Positions 25,358-64,000 of a stretch of 64,000 nt of DNA are shown in pieces (position 1 is the first letter of the stretch; each line of letters begins with the position of its first letter). Source of the stretch: a virus; IMG/VR virus record IMGVR_UViG_3300044712_001218, positions 1 to 64,000 of that record. One strand, given 5' to 3'. Position numbers and translations under genes: made by a program. A model generated the notes under the pieces. It saw nothing but the letters and a program-made list of their open reading frames with translations, was not told where the DNA came from and searched no databases.

Positions 25358-26199
25358 TGATCAGGGGATACAGCTTAATAAGTCTCGGGGTAGGAGTTCA
25401 GAGTTCTGCTCTCTACTATATGAGTTCTATGGGAATTCTACCAAGAATAAATATGGCAATCTTTGCCGATACTGGTGGAGAGAAGTCTAAAACTCTGGAG
25501 TATTTACAATACCTGCAAAAGTGGAAGAAGGATAATAATGGAATACCAATTCATGTGGCAAATTTCATTAATCTGGAGAATGACTTATTAAGGGAGGATG
25601 AAGGCAGATTTTCTTCTATTCCGGCTTTTACTCTTAATGAAGATGGAGAGAAAGGAATGCTCAGACGTCAATGTACCGGAGAATATAAAATAGCCCAGAT
25701 TAACAAGAAGTATCGAGAGCTGATGAAACTGGGTAATAAGTATTTCCCTAAAACAGAAGTGTGGATAGGAATTACTCAGGAGGAGAAAGATAGAATGGCC
25801 ATCCCGCTGGAGCAGTGGAAAATAAATGTATATCCTTTCTGTGGATATAAGATTTATCACGATGGTCACTTTGAGCTATTTCCAGGTTTTGAATCAACCC
25901 GTACTTCTATTCTTTCGTGGTATAAGGAGAATAATCTTCCAATCCCTGAGAAGTCTTCCTGTAAATTTTGCCCATTTCATGGCTACAATAGCTGGAAGAG
26001 ACTTAAGGAGATAAGTCCTAGTGATTTTGAAGATGCCTGTAAAGTGGATGATAAGATAAGACATTCATCCATGAAAGGAGTTAAGAATCCTATCTATCTC
26101 CACGAGTCTTTAAAACCACTAAGAGAAGTAAAATTTAATACCCGTACCATTGGATTCTTTGATGATCACGGTAATTGTTCTGATAATTGTGGAATATGA
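25357..26199 (+). CDS. PAPS reductase / PP-loop family protein, 280 aa
   Basis: SLGVGVQSSALYYMSSMG is the PP-loop (S-x-G-x-QSS), followed by IFADTGGEKSKTLEYLQYL, the PAPS reductase-like adenine-nucleotide alpha-hydrolase strand. RRQCTGEYKI, WIGITQEEKDRM and CKFCPFHGYNSWKRLK add conserved Cys and the ligand region. Phages often carry this family in replication or modification regions; substrates are not established. Coupled on both sides by 1-4 nt overlaps. Confidence 0.7.
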   Translation: MIRGYSLISLGVGVQSSALYYMSSMGILPRINMAIFADTGGEKSKTLEYLQYLQKWKKDNNGIPIHVANFINLENDLLREDEGRFSSIPAFTLNEDGEKGMLRRQCTGEYKIAQINKKYRELMKLGNKYFPKTEVWIGITQEEKDRMAIPLEQWKINVYPFCGYKIYHDGHFELFPGFESTRTSILSWYKENNLPIPEKSSCKFCPFHGYNSWKRLKEISPSDFEDACKVDDKIRHSSMKGVKNPIYLHESLKPLREVKFNTRTIGFFDDHGNCSDNCGI

Positions 26200-28511
26200 G
26201 CGGATTTTTTACAAAAAAGGAAACTGAATCAAAGACTAGACCAGATGGTCGAAATCTTTCCTGTATTTCTTGTGGACTTTATAAGAATTGTAATTCCCCT
26301 AGAATGAATCCTTATGGTGAATTCAAAAAGGGAATTATGGTGGTTGGAGAAGCCCCGGGAGAAATAGAAGATAGCCGGGGTAAACCTTTTCAGGGAAAGA
26401 CTGGGAAGCTTCTTCAAAGAACTTTGGCAAAGTATGGAATAGATTTATTTGAAGATTGTGTTAGTTTAAACTCAGTTAATTGCCGGCCGGAGGATAATAG
26501 AACTCCTAGTACTTATGAAATGGATTGTTGTAGATCAGTCAAAGTAACCAAAGCTATTGAGCAATATAAACCAAAGATCATAATTGTACTTGGTGGAAGT
26601 GCCTTATATAGCATAATAGGAAATAGATGGAAAAAGGAATTGGGTGGAATAACGAAATGGAGAGGGTTTTGTATTCCGGATCAAGATTTGCATTCGTGGG
26701 TTTGTCCGGTATTCCACCCATCTTTTGTCGAACGTGATGATACCGGAGTAGCTCAGGTAGTATGGGAAAATGATCTGCAGGAAATATTTAAACTGATTGA
26801 GGATAAAGTTCCTTTCCCAATTTATAAGAAACCTAAAATTGAAATAATAGATGATCTGCAGATTCTTGATACTATCAAATCTACCAGAATCGCCTTTGAT
26901 TATGAGACTACCGGATTAAAACCTCATGGATTAGGACAGGAAATAGTATGTTGTTCAATAGCTCCTTCATCAAATATGGCCTACTCCTTTATGATGCCAT
27001 CTACAAGGATAGAGAGGATGCCATTCATTAGACTCTTACGGAATCCACTAATTGAGAAAATGGCACATAATTGTTTACATGCACGATCATTAGTATTAAT
27101 GGCAGATGGAAGTAAGAAATATATAAGTTATTTAGTCAATAATAAAATTAAAGACCCGGTATTGTGCTTTAATACAAAAACAAAGAAGATTGAAGAAAAA
27201 CCTATAATAAATTGGTATAAAGAAGAAGATTCTAAAGTGATTTGGAAAAAAGTAATTACAAAAAATAGTATTAATGGAAAACAATCACATTGCTTAACTA
27301 ATGACCATAAAGTATACACTATTGAAAGAGGAATGGTAAAAGTAGATGATTTAAAAATAGGAGAAAATCTTTTAATAAAAAAAGAAGGACTATCTGATAT
27401 TCAATTGCAATTAATATTAGGGAGTGGATTAGGTGATGGGAGTATAGTTTTAAATAAGAAAAATAATAAGGCAAAAAATGCATATTTTGTAGTTACACAT
27501 GGGGAAAAACAAGAACAATATATAAAATGGAAAAGAAAAATATTAAATAATATAAGTGATGATGTAAAGAAGAAAAATAATAATAAAGGATTTAGTAGAA
27601 AAGATGGAATATCTTACGCTTTTCATACTAAATCTCTACCAGAAATCACCCCATTAAGAAGACAACTATATAGTAGAAATGGAAAGAAAATAATAACAGA
27701 AACATATCTTAATAAATTAGAACCATTAGCATTAGCAGTGTGGTATATGGATGATGGTTCTGTTTATAAAACAAATATGAATTTACATATTGCCGGATAT
27801 TCAGAAACCTCTTGTGAAAAAATAATTGAATATTTTGCTAAAAAATATGAAATATATTTTAGATTAGAAAGAGATTCATTTAATAAACCAAGAACTTTAC
27901 ATTTGGGTAAAAAAGCAGGAGGTTATAAATTTTGTGAATTAATAGCGCCATATATTCATGATGATTTAAAATATAAAATTCCAAAATATTATAAAAAGGA
28001 GGTGGGAAAATTAGTAAATAAAGTAATTAATAGTCAAAAGAATTATACCCAATCAGAAATTACTGATATAATTGATTCTGTTCCAAGAATGTCTAAAAAG
28101 ATTAAATTTTGTATAGAGGTTCCTGATAACCATAATTTCTTTACAACTATGGGATTAGTGAGTAATTGCAAATATGAAGAAACATGGAGTGCTGTTAAAC
28201 TTAGACAACCGGTAAAGAATTGGATTTGGGATACTATGTTAGCAGCCCATATATTTGATAATCGACCGGGGATAACCAATCTGAAGATTCAAACTTATCT
28301 TATGTTTGGAATCATTGATTATGCCAGTGAAGTTTCTCCCTACTTAGAAGGAGTAGGAGAGGGAGGGAATTCGTTAAATAGAATAAAGGAGTTATTGAAA
28401 CTTCCCGGTGGAAAAGTTAAAGTATTAACTTATTGTGGATATGATTCAGTATATCAATATAGATTAGCAGAATTACAAATGTCAAAAACTAATTTTGACT
28501 TGCCCTTTTAG
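26196..28511 (+). CDS. Uracil-DNA glycosylase-3'-5' exonuclease fusion interrupted by an intein, 771 aa precursor
   Basis: Residues about 15-215 are a family 4/5-type uracil-DNA glycosylase: CISCGLYKNC Fe-S cysteines, VVGEAPGEIEDSRGKPFQG, SVNCRPEDNRTP, VLGGSAL, VFHPSF. From about 230 a DnaQ/PolA-like 3'-5' exonuclease follows: Exo I in FDYETTG (D235, E237), Exo II AHN|CKYEETW split by a 365 aa intein, Exo III TYCGYDSVYQYRL. After splicing, 406 residues remain. It supplies repair and proofreading to the exonuclease-less polymerase at 28932. The start at 26196 overlaps the previous stop. Confidence 0.85.
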   Translation: MSGFFTKKETESKTRPDGRNLSCISCGLYKNCNSPRMNPYGEFKKGIMVVGEAPGEIEDSRGKPFQGKTGKLLQRTLAKYGIDLFEDCVSLNSVNCRPEDNRTPSTYEMDCCRSVKVTKAIEQYKPKIIIVLGGSALYSIIGNRWKKELGGITKWRGFCIPDQDLHSWVCPVFHPSFVERDDTGVAQVVWENDLQEIFKLIEDKVPFPIYKKPKIEIIDDLQILDTIKSTRIAFDYETTGLKPHGLGQEIVCCSIAPSSNMAYSFMMPSTRIERMPFIRLLRNPLIEKMAHNCLHARSLVLMADGSKKYISYLVNNKIKDPVLCFNTKTKKIEEKPIINWYKEEDSKVIWKKVITKNSINGKQSHCLTNDHKVYTIERGMVKVDDLKIGENLLIKKEGLSDIQLQLILGSGLGDGSIVLNKKNNKAKNAYFVVTHGEKQEQYIKWKRKILNNISDDVKKKNNNKGFSRKDGISYAFHTKSLPEITPLRRQLYSRNGKKIITETYLNKLEPLALAVWYMDDGSVYKTNMNLHIAGYSETSCEKIIEYFAKKYEIYFRLERDSFNKPRTLHLGKKAGGYKFCELIAPYIHDDLKYKIPKYYKKEVGKLVNKVINSQKNYTQSEITDIIDSVPRMSKKIKFCIEVPDNHNFFTTMGLVSNCKYEETWSAVKLRQPVKNWIWDTMLAAHIFDNRPGITNLKIQTYLMFGIIDYASEVSPYLEGVGEGGNSLNRIKELLKLPGGKVKVLTYCGYDSVYQYRLAELQMSKTNFDLPF
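27072..28166 (+). mobile_element. Intein with LAGLIDADG endonuclease, 365 aa
   Basis: It begins at Cys (CLHARSLVLMADGSKKYI, block A). A block B-like SHCLTNDHKVYTI follows, with the G-Q-S-H-x-L-T x-D-H pattern. LAGLIDADG-type motifs are LGSGLGDGSI and LALAVWYMDDGSV. The end is FCIEVPDNHNFFTTMGLVSN, then Cys as +1 residue. The penultimate residue is Ser (V-S-N) instead of the common His, which is known in some active inteins. It sits exactly in the Exo II motif (AHN^C), a typical conserved-site location. AT content is higher than the exteins. Confidence 0.93.
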
Positions 28512-56297: not shown

Positions 56298-56741
56298 TTA
56301 TAAATATGCAATACGAACAAAAACACTGGTTGATCTAAACATTGGTATTTTATCGAATCTCTTTATCTCCCATGCTCCATTCACTTCATGAGGATCAGTA
56401 GAACCAGTCCCAGTATTATCCATTGTAATATCAGTATCATCCATAGTATATTCTGTATTATCCATAGTAATCACTTCATCTATACTAATACCTAATGTAG
56501 CTATTGTTCCTAAACAAATATATCCTCCTTCATCCACATCCTGAGTAACTAATAATCGGGCTTTACTTATTACATCCTTTCCTTCCCCATCACTTATAAC
56601 TTCAGTATGTCCTTCCCATCTACAAAAGATTTCAACAGGAGAATCAAAGGTATAATTTCCCTGAGCATCAGGAACTGGATTGCCCCAATACACTGCGGGT
56701 TGTACGCAGACTCGATTTAAGAACCTTTCTAAACTACTCAT
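56298..56741 (-). CDS. Head-closure / head-tail stopper-like protein, 147 aa
   Basis: VCVQPAVYWGNPVPDAQGNY TFDSPVEIFCRWEGHTEVI and DEGGYICLGTI follow head-closure proteins (beta-rich, W-E-G). An internal MDNTEYTMDDTDITMDNTGT region is three near-repeats of an 8-9 residue unit. Its place between connector and gp10-like genes supports the role. Confidence 0.62.
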   Translation of the reverse strand: MSSLERFLNRVCVQPAVYWGNPVPDAQGNYTFDSPVEIFCRWEGHTEVISDGEGKDVISKARLLVTQDVDEGGYICLGTIATLGISIDEVITMDNTEYTMDDTDITMDNTGTGSTDPHEVNGAWEIKRFDKIPMFRSTSVFVRIAYL

Positions 56742-57106
56742 TCGTCAAAGCTTTTAACTGCTGTTATCTTTGCTGCTCTTCCAGATAAAGTTGCCATCTT
56801 TCCAGTAGTATCCAATGTTAATACCATCTGCCCATAAGTAGTAGATTTTAATCCAGCATCATACTTTCCAGTATATTTTATCTTAGCTCCTCCGGCTTCC
56901 TCACTCTCTGCCTGCCTCTCCCGAGTAGAAACTATAAGATGAGCAGTTAACCACTTTTCAATCTCTGTTAGCAAATCAGTGGTTCCTGTTCCAAGAACAT
57001 CATTTACTAATACATTAGCCGTTACAATATAGGAATCAATATCAGTATCACTAAGAGCGGTACTATCCAGTATCTTTTTTACTTCAGTTGCTGTTGTCCT
57101 TGGCAT
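56738..57106 (-). CDS. Head-tail connector protein (gp6-like), 122 aa
   Basis: MPRTTATEVKKILDSTALSD TDIDSYIVTANVLVNDVLG ... EIEKWLTAHLIVSTRERQAE: the helical gp6-like connector pattern, with S-x-x-x-I-x-x-I-x-x-A and the helical W-L-T-A-H-L. It is the first gene downstream of the glycan cassette, sharing TAATG with the sulfotransferase stop. Confidence 0.72.
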   Translation of the reverse strand: MPRTTATEVKKILDSTALSDTDIDSYIVTANVLVNDVLGTGTTDLLTEIEKWLTAHLIVSTRERQAESEEAGGAKIKYTGKYDAGLKSTTYGQMVLTLDTTGKMATLSGRAAKITAVKSFDE

Positions 57107-57774
57107 TATATTGTCCTCCTACTTTTAGTTAACATTGGGTCTATCGTTTCAAATATTTTGCTATTCCATTTTAATCCTAACCACTCAAGCATTTCATAAA
57201 TCTGTTCATAATCCCCATGAACCATTCTCTCCGGCCATATTTGCTTACAATTTACTCCGGCCTCAATCATATCCCTAAACCGATGTTCATATTCATGTAT
57301 CCACCATAACCATCCAGCTTCTTCTGAATCTACCTTTATTTTATTCCGATTTACTTCATCTTTAAAAGTATTCATATATCCGGTTTTCAAACAGGATTGA
57401 ATAATATCACCAGTTCTTCTTCTTACTATAATCCAACGGGCATTCGGATAAGCATAATTCCAGATTGGCCATGATTGGGTTAATTTAGCATCTTTATACA
57501 TCCATACCCCTTTTTCATACCTATCATATTTTACTAAACTTCTATGTATTCTCTCTTTCCAATTATTTGGTATATAAAGATTCTTAGTAGAAGGGATTAA
57601 TTCATTCATTGGATTAGCATCAAGATAATCCCATAACATTTCTTTAATATGTATATTTTCACACATATTATTAACCTCTCCGGTAAATACTCCACAAATA
57701 CTGAGTATTCTAGCTATCATAGAACTTCCACTACGTTCAATGCCTGTTATAAATATGGGAGATTTTTCTATCAT
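57106..57774 (-). CDS. Sulfotransferase, 222 aa
   Basis: IFITGIERSGSSMIARILSI is the 5'-phosphosulfate P-loop, and ARWIIVRRRTGDIIQSC the 3'-phosphate motif, of PAPS-dependent sulfotransferases. KEMLWDYLDANP and HEYEHRFRDMIE follow. It would transfer sulfate from PAPS to a sugar or protein, presumably the same glycan built by the upstream genes. Phage sulfotransferases in glycan cassettes are uncommon. Confidence 0.82.
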   Translation of the reverse strand: MIEKSPIFITGIERSGSSMIARILSICGVFTGEVNNMCENIHIKEMLWDYLDANPMNELIPSTKNLYIPNNWKERIHRSLVKYDRYEKGVWMYKDAKLTQSWPIWNYAYPNARWIIVRRRTGDIIQSCLKTGYMNTFKDEVNRNKIKVDSEEAGWLWWIHEYEHRFRDMIEAGVNCKQIWPERMVHGDYEQIYEMLEWLGLKWNSKIFETIDPMLTKSRRTI

Positions 57775-59063
57775 TTCATGTACCTTTTTCTGATCATATT
57801 CCTTTTCTCATTCTGAATCTTTACCTGAGTTGTCCTTACTTTTTGACTACCATGCCGACGATAAATAGCTAAAGGTCCGGTTGAACAATAACCAAGTTTC
57901 ATCCCATTAGCTAAACATTTAAGATTAAATTCATAATCTTCACTTGTGTTTAGATCAGGGTCAAATCCTCCCAATTTCTCAAAAACCTCCCGACGATAAA
58001 ACATAGAGGCACTATGCATTGTATTTTTAAAAAGTAGGTCTTTTAAGGTCGGGACAGCAATAGGAGGTCTCCAGAGTAATTGCCTGCCTGTATTTTGATG
58101 TAATTCGATTACATCACCATGAATAAAATCAACTCCTAACCCCTCAATAGCCTTAATTGATTCCTCTATGGAATTCTCTGTCAACATATCATCCTCATGA
58201 AGATACTTGATGTATTTTCCCCTGACCTTTGGTAAAGCCCTGTTAAAATCTTCTGACCAGCTATTATTACCCTGACTAAGTATAAGCTGAACATCACTTG
58301 GTATGCTATCAATAGCATCCTTCAACCATCCTCTATCTTCTTTGTATGATATAATAACTGTAGCTTTTGCCCTATTATCAGCTATATATTGATTGACATA
58401 ATTATTAATCCAGTCAATACTCATACTGGATTCGACTGCTTGAAATATCCTTGGTTTCCCATGAAAACAGATCAGGTTCATTCCTGGTTCGATGTTAGTC
58501 ACCACTTTTGCATTCTGTGGTTTAAAATCTACTATTCCATTATTTTGAATCGCCTGCCAAAATAAATCAGGTTTAACCACCTTTCTCAGGAAATAATCCA
58601 TCCTATTTCCAGTCACCCCTTCTTTATTAAAAGACTTCCATATCTTTTTTATCTTATCTGAATTGGCAGGGACCCATACCAAACCGGTGGCTAGTTGACC
58701 TTTCTGATAAAAATCTTCCAAGGTTATAAACATAGAAGGGTCCCTTACCAATTCAAATATATTCTCAATAGACTCAATAATAGCTGTATCCAAATCAACA
58801 TATAAAAATGGTCTGTATTTCTCCATCTCCGGGGAATATAAAGCCATCCGTGACCAAGTCCCGGGCAATTCATTCTTAAGAGGAATTACCTGCAGATTAC
58901 CAAGGTCATATTCCTGACTAGCTTTATCTGATAAACAAATAATACGTGGACGTTCTATTGCCTCCCATTTCATATTAATATGACGGGAAATCAATTCAAC
59001 ATCCCTAAAAGCAAAATCACCTCCACTCCTAAGAACAACTACTATAGTCGGTTGGGTATTCAT
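57771..59063 (-). CDS. Two-domain glycosyltransferase, 430 aa
   Basis: Residues about 1-215 form a GT-A-like domain with PFLYVDLDTAIIE (D-x-D). Residues about 225-430 are a family 2 glycosyltransferase: ATVIISYKEDRGWLKDAIDS IP, YIKYLHEDDMLTENSIEESI (D-D), SASMFYRREVFEKLGGFDPD LNTSEDYEFNLKC (acceptor loop). Two transferases in one chain suggests two successive sugar transfers. It overlaps both neighbours by 4 nt. Confidence 0.8.
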   Translation of the reverse strand: MNTQPTIVVVLRSGGDFAFRDVELISRHINMKWEAIERPRIICLSDKASQEYDLGNLQVIPLKNELPGTWSRMALYSPEMEKYRPFLYVDLDTAIIESIENIFELVRDPSMFITLEDFYQKGQLATGLVWVPANSDKIKKIWKSFNKEGVTGNRMDYFLRKVVKPDLFWQAIQNNGIVDFKPQNAKVVTNIEPGMNLICFHGKPRIFQAVESSMSIDWINNYVNQYIADNRAKATVIISYKEDRGWLKDAIDSIPSDVQLILSQGNNSWSEDFNRALPKVRGKYIKYLHEDDMLTENSIEESIKAIEGLGVDFIHGDVIELHQNTGRQLLWRPPIAVPTLKDLLFKNTMHSASMFYRREVFEKLGGFDPDLNTSEDYEFNLKCLANGMKLGYCSTGPLAIYRRHGSQKVRTTQVKIQNEKRNMIRKRYMK

Positions 59064-59710
59064 AATATTTTATAATTTTTAACAGCCAATATATCTGTAC
59101 TCTCTTTTGTAATGGTATATCCTAAATTCAATAACATATGTGCTACAAATCTCATTCCACTCACTCCATAATCTTTTCCTTTATTCCCATGCCTTTGAAA
59201 GCTATCCTCAGAAAAAGACCAATCTTCATATTTAATTATATCAATATTTACTTTCTTAAAATCAATAGACTTAATAATTTCAGCATCATACCCTTCCGTA
59301 TCTATCTGCAGATAATGAATATCTTTTATATTATTCATCTTACAAATATCAGTAAAAGTAATACTAGGAGCCTGTATTTCTACAAAATCATCTCCCCAAT
59401 CATCCATAGGAAGAAGACTAAAATGTTTATCAATATAATGCCCATTACTCACACATTTTCCATTTCCATTAAATCTATTCTTAGGATGTACCAGTTTTAC
59501 CAAGCCTCTGGTCTTATCCATCACAGCAGCATTTATAATAGTACAAGAAATTCCTTTATAACTTTCCTTTATTTTATCATTTAAATCAGAATTAGGCTCC
59601 ACCAAAATCAATTGGGAGGGATGATAAGAGCGGACAAATTTATTGAATTCATCATCACCATCATTTGTACCAATCTGTACAAATACTTTATTTTGTTGTA
59701 ATTTAATCAT
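59060..59710 (-). CDS. FkbM-family methyltransferase, 216 aa
   Basis: VFVQIGTNDGDDEFNKFVRS opens the SAM-binding fold; LILVEPNSDLNDKIKESY is motif II, and YLQIDTEGYDAEIIKSIDFK KV the D-T-E-G-x-D box of FkbM proteins. Methylates hydroxyls on sugars or polyketides. Its location in the glycan cassette suggests O-methylation of the glycan. Confidence 0.85.
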   Translation of the reverse strand: MIKLQQNKVFVQIGTNDGDDEFNKFVRSYHPSQLILVEPNSDLNDKIKESYKGISCTIINAAVMDKTRGLVKLVHPKNRFNGNGKCVSNGHYIDKHFSLLPMDDWGDDFVEIQAPSITFTDICKMNNIKDIHYLQIDTEGYDAEIIKSIDFKKVNIDIIKYEDWSFSEDSFQRHGNKGKDYGVSGMRFVAHMLLNLGYTITKESTDILAVKNYKIL

Positions 59711-60573
59711 AATAGGTTATCTGCTTTTAATAGGGTTTCCAAATAATCTTCCAACCAAATTTGATTTTCACTGTGTCCTAATTTACATTTATCAATAAGA
59801 TCAGGAACTTCCTCAGCATCCTGAAAGAATAAACAATCCTCAAATCCTGATTCAATATCATACATTTCCAAAGTATCTGATTTAACTTGCTGAATTGGAA
59901 TTGAATTTACTAATAGAGCTTCATAGAATCTGGATACCAAACCATTAGCATTTCCTAATGGGGATAAGACAAAACGATATACTGCCATCTTCTGCAAATA
60001 AGCTTCCCAGCGCTGGATTTGTGGGTCAAATACATCCAATGGACAAGTTTTTTGTAATTTCCTTATCAATTCCTTTCTCTGAGTATATTGTCCAGCAGGT
60101 CCATTCAAACTTCCAATAAACACAGCCCTATCACATTTATAGTCATAATCAATACAAATAATATCCTGATAGTTCTTAGATGGACAAAGTCTGTGTAATT
60201 TAGTCCCCAAGCGTTTGCAATCATCCACATCATAATTATAATGATAGAGATTATCAAATCCCTGTAAGAATTTATAATTATCCTCATTCCAAGAGAAAAT
60301 GGTTCCAAATATTCTCTCTGCTCCAAATACTACCACTTTTATTCCCTTATTATTACACTTCTCCACAAATCCCGGCTGATTAATTATACATTTATGAACA
60401 GAATAATGATCATCCCCTATGAATAGTATTCCAACATGATTTAAATCTTCCGTATGTAATACAATCTTTACATTTCCATATAACGCTAATAAAGCAAAAT
60501 AGTAATTTCGGAACTCACTATGTTTAGTAAATCCGAGATCACAGACTAATCCTATTTCTAATTTCCGTTTCAT
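59707..60573 (-). CDS. Exostosin-like glycosyltransferase, 288 aa
   Basis: The C-terminal half has YRFVLSPLGNANGLVSRFYEALLVNSIPI (given as YRFVLSPLGNANGLVSRFYE, ALLVNSIPI), the GT47/exostosin-like P-x-G-x-G ... R-x-x-E-A-L-x-x-x-x-I-P pattern. The N-terminal half is Rossmann-like. Donor and acceptor are unknown. Confidence 0.65.
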   Translation of the reverse strand: MKRKLEIGLVCDLGFTKHSEFRNYYFALLALYGNVKIVLHTEDLNHVGILFIGDDHYSVHKCIINQPGFVEKCNNKGIKVVVFGAERIFGTIFSWNEDNYKFLQGFDNLYHYNYDVDDCKRLGTKLHRLCPSKNYQDIICIDYDYKCDRAVFIGSLNGPAGQYTQRKELIRKLQKTCPLDVFDPQIQRWEAYLQKMAVYRFVLSPLGNANGLVSRFYEALLVNSIPIQQVKSDTLEMYDIESGFEDCLFFQDAEEVPDLIDKCKLGHSENQIWLEDYLETLLKADNLL

Positions 60574-62141
60574 AGTTTAGTTATGAGATTACGCCAATAC
60601 TCAAAGTTCATTTTTCCATAATTCCAATTTCTCAGTTTAATCCTTTCAAATTCCTTATTCAAAAAATCTTCAGTAATTCTACTCCAACTATCTACAAAAC
60701 AAATAGGGAGATCATCATAAAAACGATTATTCAAATCACTCAATACAATAGGAATAGAACCCATATATAAAGTTTCCCATAACCGATGAGTATCTATTCC
60801 GTTTCCATCAGGACAAGCTACAAATTTATGATTATACACTTGATCAATATAAGTTTTAAAGGGAACCCTTTTTTCAACAGTCACCCACGATTTATCAGAA
60901 AAAAGAGTAGCTATAATTGGTCTTATATAATTAGTTTTATTATTATGATTGACATATAATAAATTCCGGAATTTCCTATCTTTCTTTAATCTCTCTACCA
61001 TATCAGTTCTATTCACTAATCCTTTATCCCACATTGTATTAGGTATTCCTATCGGAATAGATTGTACTTTTGGATTAGGAGTATTAACATTTTGAGTATA
61101 CCATTTAATAACATTATCAGGTATTTCAAAACTATCATCAACATTAATATCACTATTATGAGTGATCACAATAAATTCACCTGACAAATGACGGAGTATA
61201 TTGAATAACTGATTTACATAAAAGGTATGAGTATAAACAATATTAACATCTTTTAAATTGAAAGGATCGAATGTATTTTCCAATTTACTATAATCATCGC
61301 GGTGTTTAATATTTGGAGAATAAATAGAATCGGCAATCTTCCAAAATCTTTCACCTTGTATCCAATCAATATTTCCAGATTTGGTAGCCCACGAAATTTC
61401 CCAATAATGAACAGCATAAGATTCTGGTAATATGAATTTCTTCCCATCTCTCTTTTCAAATCCTCTATTATTAGGAAAAGGATAAAAGTAATTAGGTGGT
61501 AAAGCAACCACCCCGGGCATATATCCTTTTATCACATCAAAGAAACAACGGGTAAAGAAATAGCTACTAATCACTTTTAAAACCTCTGCCTGAGTCATAT
61601 CATGGTTCCTTTTACTTATCTCCGATACCAGATATTCAGTAATAGGATGATGAGGAATACTTCCAATTAATCCAACATATAATTCCGGTTTCATTGGATA
61701 ACCTATTCCGGTTATAAATTCAGCATAGGATAATTCATCAAAAGGTTTTAAACATTCAAAATCAGTATCAACATATAATCCACCAAACTGATTTAATATA
61801 TGATACCTTAAAAAATCACTCTTTGGTCCGTAATTACTCATAGAAGCATAGAGTGATCTATTGATTATATTTAATTCATCCAAATCTCCTTCAGTCCACA
61901 AACGGTATTCCCAATCCGGATTCATATCCCTCCAAGTGTTGGCCCACTTTTTATACTTATCCGGAAAGGGACTACCTAACCAAATTTGATGTATCTTTTT
62001 TGGAATGCTACTTTTTGATTTATCAGCATTAATAAAGTTCCGATCATAGAGTCGATCAAGAATAGCCCAGTTAGGAAAACTATCGTACTGCCTCTGGTTA
62101 AAAGCGTATGACTTTTTCATTAATATACTAAAATTACTCAT
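60570..62141 (-). CDS. GT32-like and exostosin-like fusion glycosyltransferase, 523 aa
   Basis: Residues about 40-260: IPKKIHQIWLGSPFPDKYKK W, GPKSDFLRYHILNQFGGLYV DTDFECLKPF with the D-x-D of GT32 (capsular/mannosyltransferase type). Residues about 290-523: NIVYTHTFYVNQ, HKFVACPDGNGIDTHRLWET LYMGSIPIV, an exostosin/GT47-like acceptor loop. Two catalytic units on one chain; both loops look intact. Confidence 0.75.
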   Translation of the reverse strand: MSNFSILMKKSYAFNQRQYDSFPNWAILDRLYDRNFINADKSKSSIPKKIHQIWLGSPFPDKYKKWANTWRDMNPDWEYRLWTEGDLDELNIINRSLYASMSNYGPKSDFLRYHILNQFGGLYVDTDFECLKPFDELSYAEFITGIGYPMKPELYVGLIGSIPHHPITEYLVSEISKRNHDMTQAEVLKVISSYFFTRCFFDVIKGYMPGVVALPPNYFYPFPNNRGFEKRDGKKFILPESYAVHYWEISWATKSGNIDWIQGERFWKIADSIYSPNIKHRDDYSKLENTFDPFNLKDVNIVYTHTFYVNQLFNILRHLSGEFIVITHNSDINVDDSFEIPDNVIKWYTQNVNTPNPKVQSIPIGIPNTMWDKGLVNRTDMVERLKKDRKFRNLLYVNHNNKTNYIRPIIATLFSDKSWVTVEKRVPFKTYIDQVYNHKFVACPDGNGIDTHRLWETLYMGSIPIVLSDLNNRFYDDLPICFVDSWSRITEDFLNKEFERIKLRNWNYGKMNFEYWRNLITKL

Positions 62142-62755
62142 ATTTTAAAGTATAAAGCATCTCCCCAACTTCTTGGTTTATCATTTGTGCAAAGGCGATG
62201 AAATCCAAACTCCACTAAAAATCGGTCTAAATCCCTAACTAAACAACATCCTTTATAAACTTCTTCAAAATTAACTTCGGAATATATAATATCAATATAT
62301 TTCAAAGTATTTACTGCTCCTTTAAATACCTCCAACTCATATCCCTGAACATCTATATTAATCATATTATATTTTGAATGATCAAACATTATCATGTCTA
62401 ACTTTTCCATCATTACCGTTTCCCTCTGATCAAACACAATCTGAGGATATTGTTTTAAATGAGTCCCGGGCTCCAATACACTACTACTCATTCCATTATT
62501 TACCGTCTCTACAAACATCTGAACTTCCCCTACCTGATTTCCTAAGGCTAATTTAAAAGGAACCGCTGTAGAATCATTAGCCAAGGTTTTTAGTAACTGA
62601 TCATAATTAGATTGAAGAGGCTCAAAGAAAAGCATATTCTTTATCCCATTCCTCTTATAAATAGGATATTCCTGACCATAATGGGCTCCTATATGGATAA
62701 CTCCATTAATTTTCAAGCAATACTTCCTGATTATATCTTCCAGTTTTATAAGCAT
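62138..62755 (-). CDS. FkbM-family methyltransferase, 205 aa
   Basis: INGVIHIGAHYGQEYPIYKR NGIKNMLFFEPLQSNYDQLL: SAM motif I and the following E-P. YNMINIDVQGYELEVFKGAV NTLKYIDIIYSEVN is the FkbM D-V-Q-G-Y-E-x-x-V box. A second methyltransferase, different from the one at 59060, so at least two methylation positions are implied. Confidence 0.88.
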   Translation of the reverse strand: MLIKLEDIIRKYCLKINGVIHIGAHYGQEYPIYKRNGIKNMLFFEPLQSNYDQLLKTLANDSTAVPFKLALGNQVGEVQMFVETVNNGMSSSVLEPGTHLKQYPQIVFDQRETVMMEKLDMIMFDHSKYNMINIDVQGYELEVFKGAVNTLKYIDIIYSEVNFEEVYKGCCLVRDLDRFLVEFGFHRLCTNDKPRSWGDALYFKI

Positions 62756-63546
62756 ACTATCCTCCCCGGTGATTCTAATCTAGTCCATCCAGCAGGACAC
62801 ATAAAATCCATATCAGTCATTGCTGGGTCATTTATATCTTTCCTCCATTGAATTGGAGTTATTACTTGTTTATCAATATTCTGATTTAAATATGCTGCCC
62901 ACCAACTAAATGTACTATTTGCAATTATATTATTATTACAGAGTCTCATCAAATCAAAGGACAAATAGTCAGGCAGATGTACTAAAGTAGCATTTTCAAA
63001 CTTATCACCACACCACGGTAGATCATCACTAAAAACATAAATATCACCTTTATCCTTTATACTATCTAAAGCATTCCTATAATAATCCAAGCCCAACAAA
63101 TAATGACCATTAGCCTGCAGATAATCACCTCTACGTACATGAATAGAAGTAGATTGATTCAATATAATCTTTTCCCTTAATTCCATATACTCTTCCGTAT
63201 ACCACCCTATAGTTACTTTGAAAATATTATATAGTTTAGGAAGGATTTCCTGAAAGTATCCCGGATGTTGCCAATATCCATAGAAATAACAATTATCCAT
63301 GGTAAGGTAGTTCATATTTTTAACATATCCGGTCTTTACTTCATTTATAATGGTACCCTTCATTCTTGGAAGAGGATGAACTATTGTATAAAATTTGTTA
63401 AGTCGGTAAGGTCTTGTTTCATCACGGTATCCATTAAACCAAGAGAGATCATAACGTACAATATGCCCATGATGTTCCAAAGTATGCCCAAAAGCATACT
63501 GGAATAATTGATTTCCCAAACCACCATATATTTTAACAATATTCAT
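62746..63546 (-). CDS. Alpha-1,2-fucosyltransferase (GT11), 266 aa
   Basis: MNIVKIYGGLGNQLFQYAFG is the GT11 start. TSIHVRRGDYLQANGHYLLG carries the H-x-R-R-x-D GDP-fucose motif, and NNIIANSTFSWWAAYLNQNI the N-S-T-F-S-W-W box. GDP-fucose must come from the host, as no GDP-fucose pathway genes are visible. The product would carry terminal or branching fucose. Confidence 0.92.
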   Translation of the reverse strand: MNIVKIYGGLGNQLFQYAFGHTLEHHGHIVRYDLSWFNGYRDETRPYRLNKFYTIVHPLPRMKGTIINEVKTGYVKNMNYLTMDNCYFYGYWQHPGYFQEILPKLYNIFKVTIGWYTEEYMELREKIILNQSTSIHVRRGDYLQANGHYLLGLDYYRNALDSIKDKGDIYVFSDDLPWCGDKFENATLVHLPDYLSFDLMRLCNNNIIANSTFSWWAAYLNQNIDKQVITPIQWRKDINDPAMTDMDFMCPAGWTRLESPGRIVCL

Positions 63547-64000
63547 AGCATTCTTCTAAAGCAACTTTTCTAAACTGAGTTATAGAACTATCTGGTGATA
63601 AATTGAGTATTTCTACCCCTAATTTCTTAGCATCAATGTCAATTTGTTTAAATCCCATTAGATGCATATCAAAAGGCATTTCCATTGCTTTGCGAGGATT
63701 ACGTGATTCCATCCTATGATAAACATCATGCCAATGTTGTGCCTTATTATCCCCTAACTTCATATCAAATCCCAATAACATTATTCTCTTTGCCCCCATA
63801 TGAACTGCCAAACTGATGGAAGCAGCTCCTGAATTATGATTCCAACTTACTTTTCTAGGATCAGGACTTATTCCTTTTACATGATTAACATCTCTAGCTA
63901 CATATTTAATCCATGGTTCTCTTGCAGCATGAGGATCACAGCAAACCTTTAAACCTGGAAATTCAGCTAACTTATGTTCATTCTTAAGGAAAAAGCTATG
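63533..64000 (-). CDS. DUF115/GT42-like protein (partial, runs off the right edge)
   Basis: The frame is open from the edge, so the N-terminus is missing. Visible: HNSGAASISLAVHMGAKRIM LLGFDMKLG, with the S-G-A-x-x-x-x-x-A-x-x-x-G-A-K-x-I-x-L-x-G-x-D pattern of MptE/DUF115-like and GT42-type proteins; then HWHDVYHRME. It overlaps the fucosyltransferase start by 14 nt. Likely transfers or binds an activated group in the same cassette; assignment is tentative. Confidence 0.55.
   Translation of the reverse strand, partial: HSFFLKNEHKLAEFPGLKVCCDPHAAREPWIKYVARDVNHVKGISPDPRKVSWNHNSGAASISLAVHMGAKRIMLLGFDMKLGDNKAQHWHDVYHRMESRNPRKAMEMPFDMHLMGFKQIDIDAKKLGVEILNLSPDSSITQFRKVALEECYEYC

Follow-up and report, generated by a model that had tools for sequence, protein, structure and literature searches.

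The Cassette and Its Position in the Phage Genome

The locus described here is a cassette of predicted glycan-building genes in an uncultured tailed phage, represented by IMG/VR record IMGVR_UViG_3300044712_001218 (73,401 bases); the window is the whole 64,000-nucleotide stretch that was analyzed, bases 1–64000 of that record. Eight overlapping open reading frames (ORFs), named G8 to G1 in the order of transcription, fill positions 57106–64237, all on the minus strand, and seven of the eight are complete inside the window. Counted from the connector gene toward G8, the overlaps are 1, 4, 4, 4, 4, 4, 10, and 14 nt. G8 is truncated by the window edge (63533–64000); on the record the full gene spans 63533–64237 and encodes 234 residues. 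An original prediction, made from the window sequence, had proposed an eight-gene cassette with overlaps of 1–14 nt inside the late operon. All of the ORFs are present on the minus strand where it had placed them, and the sequence to the right of the window sharpens the location: G8 is completed at 64237 and is followed by gene X and the capsid gene, and the interval occupied by the cassette, hereafter the slot, lies exactly between the capsid gene plus X, a small head-region gene, and connector 1. The genes and their borders are as follows.

56738..57106, minus strand: con1, head-tail connector and 3′ border of the slot (phrog_302; homologues follow the slot in ~60 loci)
57106..57774, minus strand: G1, sulfotransferase, 222 residues, last cassette gene, 1-nt overlap with the connector gene (Pfam Sulfotransfer_3)
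57771..59063, minus strand: G2, two-domain glycosyltransferase, N-terminal GTa domain (phrog_1962, DxD; PmgQ homologue) and C-terminal GT2-type domain
59060..59710, minus strand: G3, FkbM-type methyltransferase, 216 residues (Pfam Methyltransf_21 1e-13; NCBIfam fkbM 8.2e-12)
59707..60573, minus strand: G4, divergent glycosyltransferase-like protein, 288 residues (profile shared with the G5 C-terminal domain)
60570..62141, minus strand: G5, two-domain glycosyltransferase, GT32 and GT47/RXYLT1-like, 523 residues (Pfam Gly_transf_sug 2.8e-14)
62138..62755, minus strand: G6, FkbM-type methyltransferase, 205 residues (Pfam 1.3e-16; phrog_8156 7.7e-24)
62746..63546, minus strand: G7, GT11 glycosyltransferase (fucosyltransferase class), 266 residues (Glyco_transf_11 3.1e-21; phrog_2644 3.2e-39)
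63533..64000 (window part), minus strand: G8, putative Maf/CstII-sialyltransferase/MptE-fold protein (phrog_4603 1.4e-29; model fold)
record 64234-65798: capsid gene and X, the other border of the slot

Upstream of the cassette lie genes for a DUF2213 protease, a decoration protein, the major capsid protein, and X (133 residues, no assigned family), and downstream lie the connector, neck, major tail, and tape-measure genes. Strong AGGAGG/GGAGG ribosome sites precede the capsid, decoration, major tail, and connector-1 genes, and within the cassette G6 alone; this scarcity fits enzymes made via translational coupling rather than in structural amounts.

Enzyme Assignments

G1 matches Sulfotransfer_3 (8.8e-09, 36.4 bits, cutoff 27), and in 45 distinct homologues R14, G16, and R119 are 100% conserved and S15 and S127 96–98%; R14-S15-G16, R119, and S127 correspond to the positions of the fold that bind the phosphates of 3′-phosphoadenosine 5′-phosphosulfate. 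The GT11 assignment of G7 (76.3 bits, cutoff 23.9) is accompanied by an HVRRGDY sequence, which corresponds to the HxRRxDY motif. Neither G1 nor G7 matched any PDB sequence. Both methyltransferases, G3 and G6, pass the Pfam and NCBIfam cutoffs for FkbM enzymes (Pfam 52.2 and 61.7 bits, cutoff 22.7). The GT2-type domain of G2 scores 33.6 bits (cutoff 27), and 49 of 55 GTa proteins, vs. 37 of 1285 other ORFs, contain the hhhDhD pattern typical of DxD-type glycosyltransferases. In G5, the GT32 domain is clear (Gly_transf_sug, 54.0 bits, cutoff 23), and RXYLT1_C and Exostosin_GT47 match weakly, under the Pfam cutoff. G4 has no Pfam family above cutoff (GT61, 15.7 bits, cutoff 27), and its homology to the second domain of G5 is the sole reason for calling it glycosyltransferase-like. 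Thus, the two FkbM methyltransferases, the GT11 enzyme, and the sulfotransferase named by the original prediction all score above Pfam cutoffs. Both of its two-domain fusions (57771–59063 and 60570–62141) are real, the second domain of the latter being weak, and its set of glycosyltransferase genes stands except at 59707–60573, which lacks a confident family.

G8 is assigned to phrog_4603 (“alpha-2,3-sialyltransferase”). A structure model built from 48 homologues (predicted local distance difference test score 92.6) found its best fold match in the Magnetospirillum Maf glycosyltransferase 5MU5 (Z 15.1 over 190 residues, 3.7 Å, VIA-align), followed by Campylobacter CstI/CstII (Z 10–12) and archaeal MptE/HPPK (Z 10); the entries at rank 25 and beyond are other folds, with Z <5. 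G8 is therefore a putative Maf/sialyltransferase-fold enzyme, a common fold being no proof of reaction. A match of G8 to the JBP1 DNA-binding domain (18.9 bits, below the cutoff of 25) conflicts with the Maf/CstII fold and was rejected.

The Slot in Related Phages

An initial search with the capsid protein as query gave 13 IMG/VR loci, and a subsequent profile search gave 396 matches, of which the best 80 were kept; with 9 further capsid matches from bacterial and archaeal genome bins, ~90 capsid-gene relatives were available, individual loci being given L numbers. The 80 that were kept are the closest matches, so percentages describe near relatives. ORFs were called mechanically on fragmentary contigs, and X and some borders were possibly missed in distant loci.

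In most relatives the order is capsid, X, G8, slot, connector 1. Where both borders are present (39 nonredundant loci), the slot ranges from −4 to 8,674 nt in length, with 0–10 genes between G8 and the connector gene. Slots of the cassette clade often begin with GT11 and then FkbM, and their final gene is nearly always a G1-homologous sulfotransferase, which is preceded in most loci by GTa and/or GT2, either as a fusion, the arrangement in the window, or as separate genes. Of the 43 loci with any cassette-family gene (redundant copies counted), 42 have the sulfotransferase, which in 38 lies ≤150 nt from connector 1. With the profile count outside the slot as a control, nine window-cassette profiles gave 135 matches within the capsid–connector interval (246 kb) vs. 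1 outside it (636 kb). The placement of the cassette is thus not due to chance, since the same interval carries homologous genes in dozens of relatives.

The two ends, G8 and the sulfotransferase, are kept and the middle is exchanged among relatives: GT11, FkbM, GT32, GDP-fucose-synthase-like, and PseB-like enzymes come and go. The domains of G2 are separate adjacent genes in L023, L028, L029, L052, and L054, and those of G5 are encoded separately in L022, L043, L052, and L063. Slots can be minimal, with essentially GTa plus sulfotransferase in L081 and L083 and a sulfotransferase with little else recognized in L044 and L099. The 80 slot genes unmatched by window profiles include GT2 enzymes, NAD epimerases/dehydratases, methyltransferases, radical SAM proteins, and RmlD- and GDP-mannose-dehydratase-type proteins. 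L043 carries a GDP-fucose-synthase-like enzyme adjoining GT11 (1.3e-121, 405.8 bits, under the NCBI cutoff of 500), L023 and L028 a PseB-like dehydratase, and L050 a nucleotide-sugar dehydrogenase. In L054 and L040, a fucose-synthase-like enzyme is paired with a DegT-type protein bearing GHHMSTIEGG, in which His replaces the usual Lys, presumably as in ColD; colitose is thus possible at these two loci. Radical SAM enzymes also lie within the glycan slots of L046 and L108, the one in L046 resembling B12-binding types.

G8 and the slot are both absent from L056, L075, L082, L087, L101, and L103. In a distant clade (L005–L012), G8 is present and the slot is filled by small membrane or signal-peptide proteins; those of L005, L007, L008, L011, and L012 are perhaps lysis genes. 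No near-identical DNA was found among cultured phages, the window GT11 used as a query returned no close relatives, and a literature search for phage sulfotransferase cassettes or “norphogenetic protein” gave nothing relevant among the papers searched.

Host names derive from metagenome bins and are tentative (Zixiibacteriota, Balneolales, Marinimicrobia, and Bacteroidales). The Zixiibacteriota bins with relatives are L105 (CP070742.1) and L108 (DSEQ01000021.1), and the location of L105 within a 3.7-Mb contig suggests a prophage in Zixiibacteriota.

The G8–GTa Pair in Unrelated Phages

In tblastn searches of phage records, GTa matched P1 pmgQ and P7 hdmD, and G8 matched P7 hdmB and relatives. 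Profile searches extended this to P1 itself, where the homologues of G8 (pmgO, 1.4e-37; pmgP, 8.3e-14) and of GTa (pmgQ, 1.1e-55) share one operon.

L109 2638-5196: P1 pmgO/pmgP/pmgQ, annotated as putative morphogenetic

XacN1, RAS14, and phiNP carry G8 and GTa homologues in a P1-like neighborhood. A scan seeded with a four-sequence GTa profile gave 33 clusters at 80% identity, 17 of which carry G8 on the same strand within ~4 kb; the capsid gene of the present lineage was not found in the stretch read around these 17.

Gene X as a Candidate Acceptor

X ends in a 32-residue C-terminal domain (GWYDVVDSNGKVLNEKPLRKEEAEELIKDL type) that is specific to X among the proteins of these loci, and it is duplicated in four of them (L074, L076, L089, and L090). 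In most G8-negative loci X is missing or lacks this domain. On the capsid tree, co-loss of G8 and the X C-terminal domain runs in one direction in 4 supported independent pairs, which is not significant. The fold of X has no PDB match. X as the acceptor is a possible lead, and the capsid or decoration protein is equally possible. Two candidates were dropped: a RaxX match in X that stayed below threshold (E 0.0076, 16.6 bits, cutoff 40), and sulfotyrosine on X, the aromatic position varying between Tyr and Phe in sulfotransferase-bearing loci.

Other Features of the Phage

The early strand (window 1–41000) carries GTP cyclohydrolase I, QueC, and PTPS/QueD-type genes, the known phage 7-deazaguanine DNA-modification set. 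At 26187–28511, one ORF of 774 residues carries a LAGLIDADG homing-endonuclease domain, possibly an intein, together with a DNA polymerase A-type region. Beyond the window, the late operon encodes beta-helix/pectate-lyase-like proteins with signal-peptide-like starts (record 68823–72947; L002 14823–18947), which resemble Pel9A and, at the C terminus, BT_4170 and are possible depolymerases.

Discussion

Collectively, these analyses favor a model in which the cassette is a cytoplasmic glycosylation locus whose product is placed on a component of the virion, a reading to which we assign a probability of roughly 0.62. The virion protein as acceptor, the order of steps, the composition of the glycan, and the benefit are all parts that we infer. 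The capsid operon would drive production of the enzymes late in infection, through translational coupling. Before assembly, a head or neck protein may then receive sugars, or have them extended, through the action of G8 and/or the GTa enzyme (G2), with the GT11, GT32, GT47-like, and GT2 domains lengthening the chain, the FkbM enzymes O-methylating the glycan, and the sulfotransferase sulfating it. Retention of the G8 and sulfotransferase ends (GTa usually just ahead of the latter) with a swapped middle would give each related phage a different glycan, candidate benefits being shielding and altered adsorption or surface charge.

The glycan would be sulfated, and probably methylated and deoxy-sugar-containing. 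The enzyme classes fit the “sulfated, fucosylated, methylated” glycan of the original prediction (sulfotransferase motifs, GT11, and the GDP-fucose-synthase-like enzyme of L043), but the sugar may be fucose or colitose and the sulfate is itself a prediction. That prediction had left two products open, virion proteins or a rebuilt host surface glycan blocking superinfection. The virion branch is the better supported, because the capsid–neck position is fixed in dozens of phages, the first enzyme has the Maf fold, and membrane and lipid-carrier enzymes are missing, although the glycosylation of virion proteins would still be a presumed outcome.

Several points weigh against this reading. We infer both the glycan and the acceptor protein, and no close cultured relative was found. 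Late expression and a site that tolerates insertions may be all that the position of the slot reflects. G8 scores 21.9 bits against Pfam MptE-like, under the gathering score of 34.6, its fold family includes a pyrophosphokinase (MptE), and in the distant clade it is retained beside a slot without glycan genes, so G8 may do something else. Co-loss of G8, the sulfotransferase, and the X C-terminal domain runs in one direction but comprises too few independent events. Finally, deletion and CRISPR interference data show P1 pmgO, pmgP, and pmgQ to be nonessential (PMC10695390), which makes any glycan dispensable in P1.

Remodeling of a host surface glycan (O-antigen, capsule, or a lipid-linked precursor), which would block competing phages or re-adsorption of progeny, is an unlikely alternative. 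GT11, GT32, FkbM, and sulfotransferase families are frequent in bacterial surface-polysaccharide loci, and cytosolic glycosyltransferases could use undecaprenyl-linked intermediates of the host. However, the cassettes showed no flippase, membrane glycosyltransferase, or initiating phosphosugar transferase. In a screen of 187 slot proteins, no credible transmembrane segment turned up in cassettes with a sulfotransferase, the hydrophobic windows there resemble buried strands of soluble enzymes, and convincing hydrophobic N termini were confined to the distant clade, whose slots lack glycan genes. The absence of membrane and lipid-carrier enzymes speaks against lipid-linked surface-glycan work, and this part of the original prediction loses ground; the slot is, moreover, fixed in the head–neck block, unlike serotype-conversion operons.

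It is less probable still that the slot simply accepts cargo genes, with glycan genes having gathered there for unrelated reasons and making no common product. Its content is variable, and the distant clade has small membrane and signal-peptide proteins at the same place, but in the cassette clade the ends are fixed, the sulfotransferase and GTa motifs are conserved, the genes overlap by a few nucleotides, and the assignable contents are mostly glycan-related. Direct modification of a protein by the sulfotransferase and G8, for example by tyrosine sulfation, with the glycosyltransferases acting separately, would agree with L044 and L099, which have few or no other recognized glycan genes, and with the RaxX match on X; we consider it quite improbable, as the sulfotransferase mostly adjoins GTa or GT2 and the C-terminal aromatic residue of X is either Tyr or Phe. 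Glycosylation of the bases of phage DNA, which would protect it from host nucleases, is the least probable. In its favor, viral glycosyltransferases can hypermodify DNA (Pyle 2024, as cited in PMC12619734), and G8 has the weak JBP1 match. Against it, no base-hydroxylating enzyme appears among 25 of 28 Pfam families listed for other window genes, the DNA modification of the window looks to be of the 7-deazaguanine type (GTP cyclohydrolase I, QueC, PTPS), and a set of several glycosyltransferase domains, two FkbM enzymes, and a sulfotransferase near neck genes accords poorly with DNA as the target.

Within the virion-glycosylation model, a broader and distinctly tentative proposal is that the slot is an exchangeable “virion serotype” locus, in which a fixed Maf-like first enzyme and a fixed sulfating last enzyme flank a swappable middle that gives each phage its own particle glycan, with P1 pmgO/pmgQ as a minimal version. 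If this is true, virion glycosylation would be far commoner than recognized and a general phage trait, affecting the charge, adsorption, stability, and recognition of particles, and P1 genes labeled only putative morphogenetic would gain a first testable role.

Comparison with Known Systems

In the literature found, virion glycosylation has been shown experimentally for a few mycobacteriophages. In Che8, Corndog, and Myrna, phage glycosyltransferases modify virion structural proteins, namely, capsid and tail tube (Freeman et al. 2023, as described in PMC12363180 and PMC12619734). The present phage likewise encodes predicted glycosyltransferases of its own, but its locus is larger, includes a sulfotransferase and methyltransferases, occupies a fixed capsid–connector site, and has a variable middle; with regard to homology to the glycosyltransferases Che8 gp110 and Corndog gp38, no Mycobacterium phage was among the matches listed in tblastn searches with G8, G2, GT11, and G1 against phage records (E ≤ 1e-5).

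Maf is needed for the addition of pseudaminic acid to flagellin, which takes place in the cytoplasm before export (PMC4065374), and the Maf gene of Aeromonas has flagellar genes on one side and a variable glycosylation island on the other (PMC7874193). The phage locus shares with the Aeromonas arrangement a Maf-fold enzyme beside structural genes followed by a variable glycan island, and, as in Aeromonas, glycosylation would be cytoplasmic and precede assembly. In contrast to flagellin islands, it lies in a phage head–neck region, has a terminal sulfotransferase, and shows no full nonulosonic-acid pathway; there are no flagellar genes around the cassette to supply a flagellin substrate, the surrounding operon being one of phage structural genes.

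The operons pmgO-pmgP-ppp-pmgQ of P1 and hdmB-hdmC-ppp-hdmD of P7 also unite G8 and GTa homologues, but they are situated away from the capsid gene, contain a phosphatase, and are without the sulfotransferase, GT11, and FkbM. Serotype conversion by gtrABC is likewise sugar transfer encoded by a phage. The gtrABC operons use a membrane flippase and lipid-carrier transferases, whereas the sulfotransferase-bearing slots encode no credible membrane proteins and neither a flippase nor a lipid-linked transferase. Phage virion glycosylation is thus a known kind of system, of which the sulfotransferase-ended, capsid-side locus with a variable middle would appear to be a variant.

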